NCBI RefSeq assembly: GCF_024710845.1
Contig: NZ_JANJTZ010000050.1
Span: 62,001 to 126,000, forward strand
Direction of reading: 5' to 3'
DNA: 64,000 nt
Origin: Mesorhizobium sp.
GTDB taxonomy: Bacteria; Pseudomonadota; Alphaproteobacteria; Rhizobiales; Rhizobiaceae
The notes under the pieces were generated by a model, which was not told where the DNA came from, did no database searches, and saw only the letters and a list, made by a program, of their open reading frames with translations. Position numbers and translations under genes: made by a program. Shown here in pieces: positions 36,552 through 46,616 of this stretch (its first letter is position 1; every line of letters starts with the position of its first letter).

Positions 36552-36601
36552 CTTCTTGCTTGAACTGACGCCCGCGCCTGGCCGGGGCGCGCTGCCTCCG
36601 G

Positions 36602-36649
36602 CAGCTCCCAGCTGTTCCACGCCATTCGTCATGCCACCGGCATGACGAA
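36602..36649. repeat. Inverted repeats in the argG/transglycosylase convergent gap
   Basis: CAGCT-CCC-AGCTG (36602-36614) and a perfect 11-bp palindrome with a 3-bp loop, TTCGTCATGCC / GGCATGACGAA (36625-36649). They lie between the argG terminator and the stop of the minus-strand transglycosylase gene and may end its transcript. A T-tract is absent. Confidence 0.55.
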
Positions 36650-42748: not shown

Positions 42749-43042
42749 ATGAATGGTGCCGCTTTCGAACGTCCCCTGATCATGTTCGTCGGTCTGGGAT
42801 TCCCTCGCCACATCGACAATGCCACCGATGCCCTGCAGGCGCTTGATGAACTCGCGCCGCTCGAACACGGTCCCGCGCACAATATGGCCGTGCGCGCCTG
42901 CCGTGCGGCGCTGCAGGGCGACGTCGAGCCGGAGACCGCGCGCGGTATCGTTGAGGCTTACGCACGAACGCGCGGCGTCCTTGTAGACGAGTTGCTCGCG
43001 CCCCACGCGATAGCGGCCAGAAACGACCTCCTCGGAGCCTGA
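42749..43042 (+). CDS. DUF982 family protein
   Basis: A 97-residue protein of the DUF982 family, which is expanded in Rhizobiales: an N-terminal strand (FERPLIMFVGLGFPRHIDN), then ATDALQALDELAPLEHGPAHNMAVRACRAALQGDVEPE. Function unknown. A near-perfect AGGAGG lies 5 nt before the ATG. Single gene behind the rpsP terminator. Confidence 0.85.
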   Translation: MNGAAFERPLIMFVGLGFPRHIDNATDALQALDELAPLEHGPAHNMAVRACRAALQGDVEPETARGIVEAYARTRGVLVDELLAPHAIAARNDLLGA

Positions 43043-43163
43043 TCCGGCAAAGCGGGTGCTTCCTTGAGAAGGCCGGCCAGTCGTGCCGGCGCGCGCCCGT
43101 TCCTTCGGGCCTGTGGCCGGATGGATATTGACGCAGGTCGGCCCCGGGTGAGACTAGATCGCC

Positions 43164-43862
43164 ATGTCCAGTCTCACCACCATCGGCTTCGATGCCGACG
43201 ACACGCTCTGGCAGAACGAACAGTTCTTCCGGCTGACCGAACGCCGCTTCGCCGAACTGCTGGCCGACTATGCGGAGCCGGACCATCTGGTCGAGCGCCT
43301 CCTGGCTGCCGAGAGGAAGAACCTCGCCGCCTACGGTTTCGGCATCAAGGGATTCACCCTGTCGATGATCGAGACGGCGATCGAGGTCACCGAGGGTCGC
43401 GCGCCGGCAAACGTCATCCAGGCAATCCTCGAGACCGGGCGCGAGATGCTGTCGCATCCGGTCGAGACCCTGCCGCATGTGCGCGAGACGCTGGAGGCGC
43501 TGGCCGGAGACTACCGGCTGGTGATGATCACCAAGGGCGATCTGTTCGACCAGGAGCGCAAGCTTGCCGCCTCCGGGCTCGGCGACTTCTTCGACGCCGT
43601 CGAGATCGTCTCGGACAAGAAGCCCGACACCTACCGCCGCATCTTCGCCCGCCATGGCGACGGCGCGGAGCGGGCGATGATGGTGGGCAACTCGCTGAAG
43701 TCCGACGTGCTCCCGGCCCTCGACGCCGGCGGCTGGGGCGTCTTCGTGCCGCACGAACTCACCTGGGTGCTGGAGCACGCCGAAGAGCCGGCCGATCACC
43801 CCCGCTTCCGCAAGATCGCGCATCTGGGAAAACTGGAGGAGGAGATCCGGCGGGCGCGATAG
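43164..43862 (+). CDS. HAD family hydrolase
   Basis: A 232-residue haloacid dehalogenase-superfamily phosphatase. Motif I is GFDADDTLW (nucleophile Asp and general acid Asp). Motif II is MITKGD, motif III the Lys in SDKKPDTYRRIF and motif IV MMVGNSLKSDVLPALDAGG. A helical C1 cap follows motif I. YjjG-like nucleotidases and phosphoglycolate phosphatase-like enzymes are nearest in layout. Substrate unknown. Confidence 0.88.
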   Translation: MSSLTTIGFDADDTLWQNEQFFRLTERRFAELLADYAEPDHLVERLLAAERKNLAAYGFGIKGFTLSMIETAIEVTEGRAPANVIQAILETGREMLSHPVETLPHVRETLEALAGDYRLVMITKGDLFDQERKLAASGLGDFFDAVEIVSDKKPDTYRRIFARHGDGAERAMMVGNSLKSDVLPALDAGGWGVFVPHELTWVLEHAEEPADHPRFRKIAHLGKLEEEIRRAR

Positions 43863-44077
43863 GGGACACACCAGGCGGCCGCGACCCGGCGGACCGAAAA
43901 AGCCTGCGAGTGCGCCCTGTCCTTCTCCCCTTGTGCGGGAAGACAGGAGGTGCATCGATTTCCGCGCCAGTTGCCGCCAACCCCTTGCCCCACTCGCCAT
44001 TCGCCACGCGCTACTCGCCTTTCGATCCACACCCCTTCGCCCCTCCGCGACACTGTCGGCGATGAAAGGAGGCACAG
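43863..44077. repeat. Repeat-derived intergenic DNA
   Basis: 215 bp with no gene. It includes CTTCTCCCCTTGTGCGGG and the motif ACTCGCCATTCGCCACGCG followed by CTACTCGCC, sequences of the kind that recur between genes in rhizobia. The last 15 bp carry the AGGAGG ribosome site of the next gene. Confidence 0.4.
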
Positions 44078-45067
44078 GTGGCCAACTGGGACGCAACGAG
44101 TGACTGGCAAAGCGGGATCGAGTGGGACCTTGTGATCGAACGCAATGTCCGGCTGCTCGGCCCCATCATCACCACGCTGTGCATCATGGCCGGGCTTTCC
44201 TCGCCCCTTGAGGCGAGGCGAGAAGTGGTGGCCGAAGGCCACGAAAAGCCCCGGAATGGGCTTTGCGAGCGACCGAGCGCCCGGAGCCATAGCGGAGGGC
44301 CGGGTCCGGCTCGGCTCGCCTCTTCCTCGCCCCTTGAGGGAGAGGATGGTCCGGCTCGCCGAGGCAAAGCCGAGGGGTTAGCCGGACCTGGTGAGGGGTG
44401 CCTTTCCCTAACCCTCCCCCGCCGCGTCCACCGCGCCGTCTACCGCCTGCTGCGCGCGGCGGAAGCTGCGGTCAGGCGGCTGATCGTCGTCGTCGGCCGC
44501 GACATGGTGGCGGCGGAACCGGCTCTGCCCCCGCTCAAGCCGAACAGCGGCCCGCTGGTCACGCACGTCCCCGTCCTCATCCCCGGCCTCGGCCTGGCGC
44601 TCGCGCCCGCCGCCGGAACGCAAGCACCGGCCGAAGCGACGGCCCAGCGCAAACTCTCCTTCCCGCTCCTCGACCCGCTGCCCGACCCGGACGCGCAACC
44701 GTTCCACATGCGCACCTCCGGCGTGCCGCGCATCTCCATCCCCGGCTGGACGCCGCTGTTTCCGGTCGCGGGCCACCACGACCCCGCGCCCAACGATCCG
44801 ATCGATGCCGGCCATCTGCGCCTGCGTCTGGAAGCCTTGAGCCGGGCGCTCGGCGACCTGCCCCGCCAGGCGATGCGCCTCGCCCGCTGGCGGGCCCGCT
44901 GCGAGGCCGCGCGAAAAGCCGGCCGCGTCGGCCCCCTCTCGCCGCTGCGCCCCGGCCGCGCCTACGGACTTCATCGACCGGGTTCGCCAAGGCACGAGCA
45001 CGCGGTCGACGACGTGCTGAGAGACCTGCATTACTTCGCCTGGGAGGCGAGGCGGGATACGTCGTGA
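44078..45067 (+). CDS. Unknown protein carrying an in-frame palindromic repeat insertion
   Basis: A 329-residue protein starting at GTG with AGGAGG 5 nt upstream. Residues 1-40 (for example WDLVIERNVRLLGPIITTL) and 113-329 (RRVHRAVYRLLRAAEAAVRRLIV; ... LRLRLEALSRALGDLPRQAMRLARWRAR ... HAVDDVLRDLHYFAWEA) look like one conserved alphaproteobacterial family of unknown function. Residues about 41-112 instead translate a palindromic DNA repeat: SSPLE appears twice (41 and 83), followed by GEDGPARRGKAEG. The reading frame survives the insertion. Confidence 0.7.
   Translation: MANWDATSDWQSGIEWDLVIERNVRLLGPIITTLCIMAGLSSPLEARREVVAEGHEKPRNGLCERPSARSHSGGPGPARLASSSPLEGEDGPARRGKAEGLAGPGEGCLSLTLPRRVHRAVYRLLRAAEAAVRRLIVVVGRDMVAAEPALPPLKPNSGPLVTHVPVLIPGLGLALAPAAGTQAPAEATAQRKLSFPLLDPLPDPDAQPFHMRTSGVPRISIPGWTPLFPVAGHHDPAPNDPIDAGHLRLRLEALSRALGDLPRQAMRLARWRARCEAARKAGRVGPLSPLRPGRAYGLHRPGSPRHEHAVDDVLRDLHYFAWEARRDTS
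44196..44400. repeat. Palindromic repeat inside a coding sequence
   Basis: TTCCTCGCCCCTTGAGG occurs at 44197-44213 and again at 44323-44339. After the second copy GGTCCGGCT (44348-44356) pairs with AGCCGGACC (44380-44388). I recognise CCCCTTGAGGGAGAGG with a following GGTCCGGCT hairpin as a repeat scattered through Rhizobiales genomes. It is translated in frame within the gene at 44078-45067. Confidence 0.7.
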
Positions 45068-45095
45068 AGAAGGCGACGGTCCATCCCACGCGCGA

Positions 45096-45274
45096 CGTCA
45101 TCCTCGGGCTTGACCCGAGGATCTACCTCCGCTCGTCCGTATCTAAACCGCCCATCGCTTCAACGCCGGCAGATCCTCGGGGTGAGATAGCGGTTCGCCC
45201 ATCGGGCGAATTGCAAGGTCCCGTGGACCTTGCAAAGCCAATCGAACGCCCGAAGGGCCGGCCCGAGGATGACG
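45096..45274. repeat. Palindromic repeat with 14-bp terminal inverted repeats
   Basis: CGTCATCCTCGGGC (45096-45109) is inverted exactly at 45261-45274. Inside are TTCGCCC-ATC-GGGCGAA (45194-45210) and, directly abutting, TTGCAAGGTCC-CGT-GGACCTTGCAA (45211-45235). The sequence around TCATCCTCGGGCTTGACCCG is a well-known rhizobial intergenic repeat. No gene lies between this and asd. Confidence 0.75.
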
Positions 45275-45357
45275 GCAACTGCTCTGCACGGGCAGCGCCT
45301 CCGTGCGGAAAGAGCAAACTGTCCCCGGCACTTAGCCTGTGCGGCGTTGGCCGCCGA

Positions 45358-46392
45358 TCAAGCCGCCTTGGCCCGCGGCTTCAGCAGGCCCCGCTCGATC
45401 ATCAGTTCTGCGATCTGCACCGCGTTGAGCGCGGCGCCCTTGCGAAGGTTGTCCGAGACGACCCAGATGTTGAGGCCGTTCTCGATCGTCGGGTCCTCGC
45501 GGATGCGCGAGATGAAGGTCGCGTCCTCGCCGGCGCTCTCGACCGGCGTGATGTAGCCGCCGTTCTCACGCTTGTCGATCACCTGGCAGCCCGGCGCCTC
45601 GCGCAGGATGTCCCGTGCCTCGTCCGCCGTGATCGGCTTCTCGAACTCGATGTTGATCGCTTCCGAATGGCCGATGAACACCGGCACGCGGACGCAGGTC
45701 GCCGTCACCTTGATCTTCGGGTCGAGCATCTTCTTGGTCTCGGCCACCATCTTCCACTCTTCCTTGGTCGAGCCGTCGTCGAGGAAGACGTCGATGTGCG
45801 GGATGACGTTGAAGGCGATGCGCTTGGTGAACTTCTTCACCTCGACGCCGTCGGCGACGAACACCGCGCGGGTCTGCGTGAACAGTTCGTCCATGCCTTC
45901 CTTGCCGGCGCCGGACACCGACTGGTAGGTCGCCACGACGATGCGCTTGATCGTCGCGAAATCATGCAGCGGCTTCAGCGCCACCAGCATCTGCGCGGTC
46001 GAGCAGTTCGGATTGGCGATGATGTTCTTGCGCGTGTAGAGCGAGATCGCATCCGGATTCACCTCCGGCACGATCAGCGGCACGTCCTGGTCGTAGCGCC
46101 AGGCCGAAGAGTTGTCGATGACGACGCAGCCCTGCTTGCCGATCTTCGGCGACCATTCCTTCGAGACGGCGCCGCCGGCCGACATCAGGCAGAGGTCGGT
46201 GTCGGAGAAGTCGTAACTGTCGAGCGACTTCACCTTCAGCGTCTTGTCGCCATAGGACACTTCCGTGCCCTGGCTGCGGCGCGAGGCGAGCGCCACCACC
46301 TCGTCGGCCGGAAAGCCGCGTTCTTCCAGAATGTTCAGCATTTCGCGGCCCACATTTCCCGTGGCGCCGACGATCGCAACCTTGAAACCCAT
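45358..46392 (-). CDS. asd: Aspartate-semialdehyde dehydrogenase
   Basis: NADPH-dependent reduction of aspartyl phosphate, the branch enzyme for lysine/diaminopimelate, threonine and methionine. Rossmann loop VGATGNVGREML at residues 8-19; active-site Cys in NPNCSTAQM; SVSGAGKEGMDEL and the catalytic His region in TCVRVPVFIGHSEAINIEF. Length is 344 residues. Together with dapF at 7.9 kb it belongs to the diaminopimelate pathway. Upstream are a GC-rich palindrome and a very small possible gene. Confidence 0.97.
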   Translation of the reverse strand: MGFKVAIVGATGNVGREMLNILEERGFPADEVVALASRRSQGTEVSYGDKTLKVKSLDSYDFSDTDLCLMSAGGAVSKEWSPKIGKQGCVVIDNSSAWRYDQDVPLIVPEVNPDAISLYTRKNIIANPNCSTAQMLVALKPLHDFATIKRIVVATYQSVSGAGKEGMDELFTQTRAVFVADGVEVKKFTKRIAFNVIPHIDVFLDDGSTKEEWKMVAETKKMLDPKIKVTATCVRVPVFIGHSEAINIEFEKPITADEARDILREAPGCQVIDKRENGGYITPVESAGEDATFISRIREDPTIENGLNIWVVSDNLRKGAALNAVQIAELMIERGLLKPRAKAA

Positions 46393-46443
46393 CGAAATCT
46401 CCTGTCCCCCTCCGCTCGTTTCGGAAAACCCGCCGGCTTCGCG

Positions 46444-46466
46444 GGGTCCGTCCCCGGGCCGGACCC
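46444..46466. repeat. GC-rich palindrome in the asd leader
   Basis: GGGTCCG (46444-46450) pairs with CGGACCC (46460-46466), with overlapping CCCCGGG/CCCGGGG symmetry. It is about 50 bp upstream of the asd start and resembles a rhizobial GGTCCGGCCCGGGG-type repeat. Confidence 0.4.
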
Positions 46467-46493
46467 GGGGAGGGGCGAGCAGGCCAAGGGGCG

Positions 46494-46616
46494 TCAGACC
46501 GTTTTGGCGGTCGCCGTTTTGGCCGTGGTTTTGGTGGAACGGGGCATGCGAGCGCCATCGCCGGCCGAAAGACCGGTGAAGCCGCTGGTCAGAAAGGCCA
46601 TAAGCAGGCCGCGCAT
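46494..46616 (-). CDS. Possible 40-residue small protein
   Basis: An ATG-initiated frame of 41 codons between the PAP2 gene and asd, with GGAG about 9 nt upstream. The product starts MRGLLMAFLTSGFTGLSAGD (hydrophobic) and ends in a Lys/Thr/Ala-rich tail. It could be a small membrane peptide or a chance frame; no homologue is known to me. Confidence 0.25.
   Translation of the reverse strand: MRGLLMAFLTSGFTGLSAGDGARMPRSTKTTAKTATAKTV

Follow-up and report, generated by a model that had tools for sequence, protein, structure and literature searches.

Palindromic repeats read in frame as part of bacterial proteins have been described for Rickettsia, Wolbachia, Neisseria, enterobacteria, and Coxiella (PMC2229807, PMC3733652, PMC5896051; Wolbachia through the title of a cited work). 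Rickettsia palindromic elements (RPEs) are palindromic sequences of 105-146 bp that lie both between and within genes, where they are fused in frame to protein genes (PMC2229807, PMC3733652), and an RPE-bearing gmk has been shown to be translated (PMC2229807). Likewise, intragenic GTAG and CGTC REP elements are described as short palindromes within the ORFs of varied, unrelated proteins, many of them concerned with DNA synthesis or repair, and the authors of that work suggest that such insertions may be neutral since the tagged proteins may be modular (PMC3733652). Among rhizobial repeats, RIME and the A, B, and C elements of Sinorhizobium are described as intergenic, and intergenic mosaics are a known feature of rhizobial genomes (PMC2573895). 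Finally, ERIC, the 107-bp NEMIS, and QMITE2 are non-autonomous MITEs that are reported to extend or interrupt ORFs in frame on occasion (PMC2229807, PMC5896051). Most known cases of in-frame repeat insertion in bacterial proteins are dispersed among unrelated genes; among the papers listed by a literature search of titles and the beginnings of abstracts, with most subscription journals outside its range, none dealt with one protein hinge repeatedly capturing different repeats.

An unannotated gene and its in-frame insert

The window, that is, the whole stretch of 64,000 nucleotides analysed here, belongs to contig C34 of a genome of 5.36 Mb in 70 contigs, for which the closest named relative found was the metagenome assembly Mesorhizobium sp. 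ACE_PRO30, although near records may be left out. On the + strand it carries an ORF of 329 aa with a GTG start (44078..45067), assigned by sequence and a family profile to an unannotated multicopy family. The AGGAGG ribosome-binding site reported earlier for this gene is present ahead of the GTG (44067..44072, +), and GTG is likewise the start codon in 18 of 20 genus-set members, 17 of these 18 being preceded by GGAGG, with ATG in the remaining two. The window protein had zero matches in Pfam, NCBIfam, and PADLOC, and a PHROGs search with 20 family members also returned zero. A PDB sequence search gave a best E of 0.026, to designed proteins; a fold search against PDB and BFVD found nothing at E<=0.001, searched phage and plasmid records held no match to the host protein, and Rfam 15 covariance models gave no match at E<=1 across window positions 43000-46500.

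AlphaFold2, supplied with 58 window and relative sequences, predicted a mainly helical protein with five main helices. The helices flanking the hinge have block means of 84-94; specifically, an N-terminal helix precedes it at residues 16-37 (44123..44188, +; 84-94) and a second helix follows at residues 115-140 (44420..44497, +; 91 over residues 111-140). Confidence falls below a pLDDT of 50 at residues 61-105, within the hinge, and again in a second predicted-disordered loop at about residues 159-182 (44552..44623, +), around which some relatives carry in-frame repeats. The C-terminal helices, residues 245-280 and 309-328 (44810..45061, +), include invariant columns of a 20-member alignment.

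A sequence-only reading of this gene had proposed that residues 41-112 consist of two repeat units inserted in frame. Comparison with relatives upholds the two in-frame units and narrows the insert to residues 41-111, or 71 codons (44198..44410, +), which form the linker between MAGL and TLPRR. The first unit, U1 (44198..44322, +), contains short hairpins and is recognised by its non-family matches in its own genome and in other genomes of the genus; the second, U2 (44323..44398, +), contains stem-loops, is read as SSPLEGEDG..PGEG, and is recognised by folding and by matches elsewhere. The two-unit structure was confirmed by a 17-bp direct repeat, TTCCTCGCCCCTTGAGG, that brackets U1: its left copy (44197..44213, +; repeat family D2) and right copy (44323..44339, +; from a repeat search) start 126 bp, or 42 codons, apart. 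The disorder suggested for the insert holds as a prediction, the insert lying between two confidently predicted helices. By contrast, the description of the segment as Arg-rich fails for the linkers of the family, which have more Gly, Ser, Glu, and Gln than the core and less Arg (8.2% vs 15.4%).

As DNA, U2 folds far better than shuffled sequences (z -3.29; 1 of 200 as good), whereas U1 alone folds weakly (z -1.45; 21 of 200 as good); as RNA, the two units together reach a z of -3.95, with 0 of 200 shuffles as good. Both U2 and the whole insert are therefore palindromic or hairpin-forming, and U1 by itself is weakly so. Across nine family copies, both sides of the U2 stem changed in 3 of 24 pairs, with a covariation term of just -0.03, and the hairpin gains no covariation support.

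Directly 3' of the gene lies a further palindromic element, inverted repeat I3 (45096..45274, +), with a U1-like unit nested inside; it is common to paralogues and present in their flanks. Its counterpart in L015 (about 2508-2700) has matches at many sites across the genus.

Repeats at the hinge and elsewhere

A profile of the host family matched 42 of the 199 genomes sampled from the taxonomic family of the window (Rhizobiaceae, judging by the named relatives), spanning 26 of 109 genera; the window genome had six matches and each other positive genome between 1 and 13. These are profile matches, not curated gene counts, and 12 first-look candidates were scored per genome. Copy numbers from draft genomes may be underestimates, since in genome G003 some contigs of the assembly stop inside or next to family genes (L024 on C7, and the ends of C22 and C23). 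Among 199 family-match loci, some of them holding genes fetched more than once, 174 hold one full ORF. The remaining 25 comprise ten that reach a contig end, 11 whose ORF includes no recognised N part (distant members or unresolved cases), and four that appear split. The break lies at the hinge in L122, immediately after it in L253, and at a later point in L159 and L153; an out-of-frame change at the hinge would produce a locus like L122. The gene itself was also considered as a mobile unit, but the flanks of the same copy match no better than those of different copies (3.9 vs 4.0 bases). In G164, ten dispersed copies (L200, L201, L202, L204, L205, L206, L208, L214, L216, and L175) have about 1 kb in common, bounded fairly sharply (TTGTCAG... 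to ...GCTGTCGGCA), a pattern that a conserved promoter and 3' end explain as well as a gene-sized mobile unit does.

The full-length set comprises 143 distinct members, whose in-frame state is partly by construction because each was required to be one ORF. Their linkers range from 2 to 101 aa. Long linkers (>=15 aa) occur in 95 of the 143, and the alignment that had been proposed as a check on insertion shows homologues without a long insert to be common, 48 of 143 having linkers of <15 aa, typically 5-8 aa. Using blastn against references together with peptide patterns, 74 of the 143 linkers were assigned to a repeat class, and 22 long linkers fall in none. At least five dispersed classes are found in frame at the hinge, or six by our own count; the lower figure is used because the first hairpin of G/H, two classes counted as one for their shared motif, resembles that of U2. 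U1 has non-family places in its own genome and in genus genomes, and U2 a few in its own. Dispersed places were also found for the GGGGACAG class (the GGGGACAGTTTACTT palindrome, read RGQFTFF..AEKSKLSP) and, outside the family, for the class read TSPLMGEV or PLWGGAGG. The GIPGAG..DFGLRPIP class has 11 matches in the window genome, and the PHPEV class (PHPEVRAEGEPRR type) has any place in flanking DNA for 5 of 15 members. For the RQSAIASRQS (RQS) class, dispersal was sought in G091, where the gene itself was the sole place. One linker, L235, combines several classes. The window itself contains, at 36582-36647, a copy of the GIPGAG..DFGLRPIP repeat, which in other genera is found in frame at the hinge.

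The GGGGACAG class gave 74, 27, and 45 matches in three genomes and 0, 2, and 2 in three others, counting palindromes on both strands and including family copies. Sixteen of 20 copies are stop-free in the frame of the hinge, and a target-site duplication was seen in 0 of 20 at the assumed ends, beyond which the inverted repeats seem to run further. On a core tree of the quick kind, which counts changes and cannot tell gain from loss, the combined class label needs 46 changes and single classes 2 to 11.

BLASTN of 44196-44415 against its own genome, a search along the lines that the sequence-only reading had proposed, returned 18 matches, several outside the gene family, so that the insert DNA is not unique. 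The four strongest (95-100%) are the window gene and three paralogues; most others are outside the family and shorter or of lower identity. U1 was also matched in other genomes of the genus. Among nine U1-type non-family places examined, five lack overlap with a coding-like ORF, three start <=25 bases behind an ORF's stop codon, and one lies within an unverified ORF; the earlier label of an intergenic-type repeat therefore suits U1. It does not suit U2, which is low-copy in its own genome and mostly inside ORFs. Outside the family, U2 occupies only about four places in the window genome. Copies elsewhere keep its constant arms around a different inner hairpin, and a search with its peptide in the window genome gave eight matches at E<=10, all in open frames of >=135 aa.

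Two of these U2-bearing genes lie on contig C38 of G000. A phage-type C-5 DNA methylase (L042:525-2828) contains two inverted U2 copies in frame, and in an alignment it has 55-60 residues at the U2 spot that two phage homologues lack, in a surrounding stretch that varies otherwise too. In-frame presence where homologues lack the repeat is thus seen in more than one gene family. A DUF5131 protein (L006:177-1580) has its last residues and stop codon supplied by U2 in the same SSPLEGEDG frame. A further U2 copy lies just behind a stop codon on contig C12.

Dispersal was controlled for by masking family genes in the fetched DNA and excluding the 56 loci retrieved through U1 or U2, to avoid a bias towards these classes, with the result that the U2-only class is absent from the count; 839 kb remained. 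At E<=1e-5, matches to the masked DNA were found for 40 of 95 long linkers vs 25 of 749 equal-length core tiles, leaving 55 of the 95 without one, and at E<=1e-10 for 31 of 95 vs 10 of 749. With the 56 loci included, matches at E<=1e-3 were obtained for 53 of the 95 long linkers and for 19 of 95 adjacent controls. When whole ORFs were used as queries and at least three places not beside a mask were required, the hinge qualified in 31 members. Under the same rule, residues 150-189 (window numbering) qualified in 4, 2, 4, and 7 members per ten-residue bin, some members falling in more than one bin; elsewhere, only a single N-helix member and a single member near residue 220 qualified. The cluster at residues 150-189 surrounds the second loop that the structural model predicts to be disordered. 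N-helix DNA of 27 members matched one or two places, and some single core matches adjoin masks; both are probably unmasked family fragments.

Turnover, selection, and competing readings

Orthologues at one locus differ in the state of their insert. Where a HAD-type hydrolase lies upstream, the window gene (L009) has U1 and U2, and its syntenic orthologue in a related genome (L010) lacks U1 and has U2 only. A second locus, defined by a common downstream gene, shows three states: a stub of 10 aa in L029, U2 in L012, and a U1 tail in L013. The sequence of L020 fits a 45-bp deletion between two copies of GGTCCGGCTCG lying 45 bp apart.

Estimates of dN/dS were computed for 14 pairs, six of which share no sequence. 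In these six disjoint pairs, values were 0-0.34 for the N helix, 0.16-0.27 for the C core, and 0.34-1.27 for the linker. The linker exceeded the C core in 6 of 6 disjoint pairs and 13 of 14 overall, the one exception having only 10 codons; its value was <1 in four of the six. In the other eight pairs the N helix reached 1.47 once, on five changes. The helices are under purifying selection, and the linker is much less so. Synonymous divergence (dS) was lower in the linker than in the core in 6 of 6 disjoint pairs and 13 of 14 overall. Plain drift would not be expected to give this pattern, for which gene conversion, recent insertion, and stem constraint are possible causes.

That a palindromic repeat was taken into the protein in frame, the central proposal of the sequence-only reading, is supported by members free of the insert, by copies outside the family, and by predicted disorder between helices. 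The repeats share a common site, are in frame, and are restricted to predicted disordered loops. The most probable explanation, at roughly 0.8, is that mobile palindromic repeats land widely, that in-frame, stop-free landings in structure-free loops survive, and that these are later trimmed through direct repeats. Specifically, two non-autonomous palindromic elements would have inserted into the window gene and would now be read as protein. The landing site would be the hinge between the first two confident helices, which appears to tolerate very different lengths and sequences, and several repeat classes would land both in it and at other genomic sites. Insertions that shift the frame, bring a stop, or hit a helix would be lost, while those that are in frame and fall in the disordered hinge, or more rarely around the second disordered loop, may persist as near-neutral peptide. 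Short direct repeats within and between units could allow in-frame deletions, by which linkers would shrink and be replaced. Repeated, frame-preserving uptake at one hinge would thereby turn junk-like repeats into protein at one predictable place.

Other readings account for parts of this evidence. The linker could be native and vertically inherited, with the dispersed copies spawned from it. The best copies in the window genome are indeed paralogues, and the occurrence of the same residues in distant genera, named beforehand as evidence against insertion, was partly observed, U2-like residues standing at the same place in L090 (M. alhagi) and in L180 and L184. We read these as old or repeated insertion, because other members hold different repeats or almost nothing there (<15 residues in 48/143) and because U2 is present in the methylase at a spot where it is missing from two phage homologues. 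The 74, 27, and 45 matches of the GGGGACAG class given above also argue against a native linker, an origin that we consider improbable. Still less credible, and very improbable, is that the insert is untranslated, either through a true start further downstream or through decay of the gene. Although the four split-looking loci (L122, L153, L159, and L253) speak for it, the N helix ahead of the insert has the low dN/dS of 0-0.34 in the six disjoint pairs and is conserved in insert-free members behind a conserved GGAGG, and the full ORF is kept at 174 of 199 loci. The gene may thus be expressed, as the sequence-only reading supposed, the conserved ribosome-binding sites and the low dN/dS speaking for this indirectly.

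The inserts might instead be selected for, as a variable spacer tuning the protein or as an mRNA hairpin controlling translation. Recurrence at one site is unusual, three of 24 stem pairs changed on both sides, and the lower linker dS in all six disjoint pairs points the same way. However, lengths and sequences vary widely among members, many of which have almost no linker, linker dN/dS is raised, repeats also enter the second loop, and the covariation term is near zero; selection for the inserts seems unlikely. Finally, the DNA of the hinge could be a preferred integration target, so that recurrence would reflect targeting as well as tolerance, a proposal compatible with landing and survival in disordered loops. 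Several classes do occur at one codon position in a gene that sits among other repeats, but the second loop, with different DNA, also takes repeats, and no target-site duplication was found in 20 GGGGACAG copies, whose assumed ends may not be the true ones. Such targeting is doubtful, though it deserves a little more credence than selection for the inserts. There is a similarly slim chance that the hinge is a true landing pad, to which the coding sequence or the multicopy family draws palindromic repeats. If so, the family would be a repeat trap and a record of the mobile repeats once at work in each lineage, and its genes would survive through the in-frame position of the site.

Relation to described repeat systems

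Under the preferred explanation of landing and survival in disordered loops, the suggested dependence of survival on disorder and frame becomes countable, as loops vs helices in one protein, as orthologues per locus, and as broken members. The case also marks a multicopy protein family without a Pfam or NCBIfam name.

The likeness to RPEs that had been suggested at the outset holds in that the repeats are palindromic, have copies elsewhere, between and within genes, and are fused in frame in more than one gene family. It is a likeness of description, not a claim of kinship in sequence, and translation, shown for the RPE-bearing gmk, is a prediction for the present insert. Unlike the RPE cases, several classes enter a single hinge of a single multicopy family, in Mesorhizobium-like bacteria. 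The GTAG and CGTC REP elements, compared by description, resemble U1 and U2 as short palindromes inside ORFs; as described (PMC3733652), they occur in unrelated proteins, whereas here capture recurs at one hinge. Likewise by description, U2 is mosaic-like in the manner of RIME and the A, B, and C elements, with constant arms and a variable inner hairpin, but those elements are described as intergenic (PMC2573895). MITEs as described share the non-autonomous character and the in-frame fusions, and the GGGGACAG class shows no target duplication in 20 copies at the assumed ends.

In-frame palindromic insertion was already known; the novelty is that a single hinge captures several repeat classes. 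One structural position took different repeats repeatedly across genera, a possible source of new, largely disordered protein sequence in bacteria other than Rickettsia.
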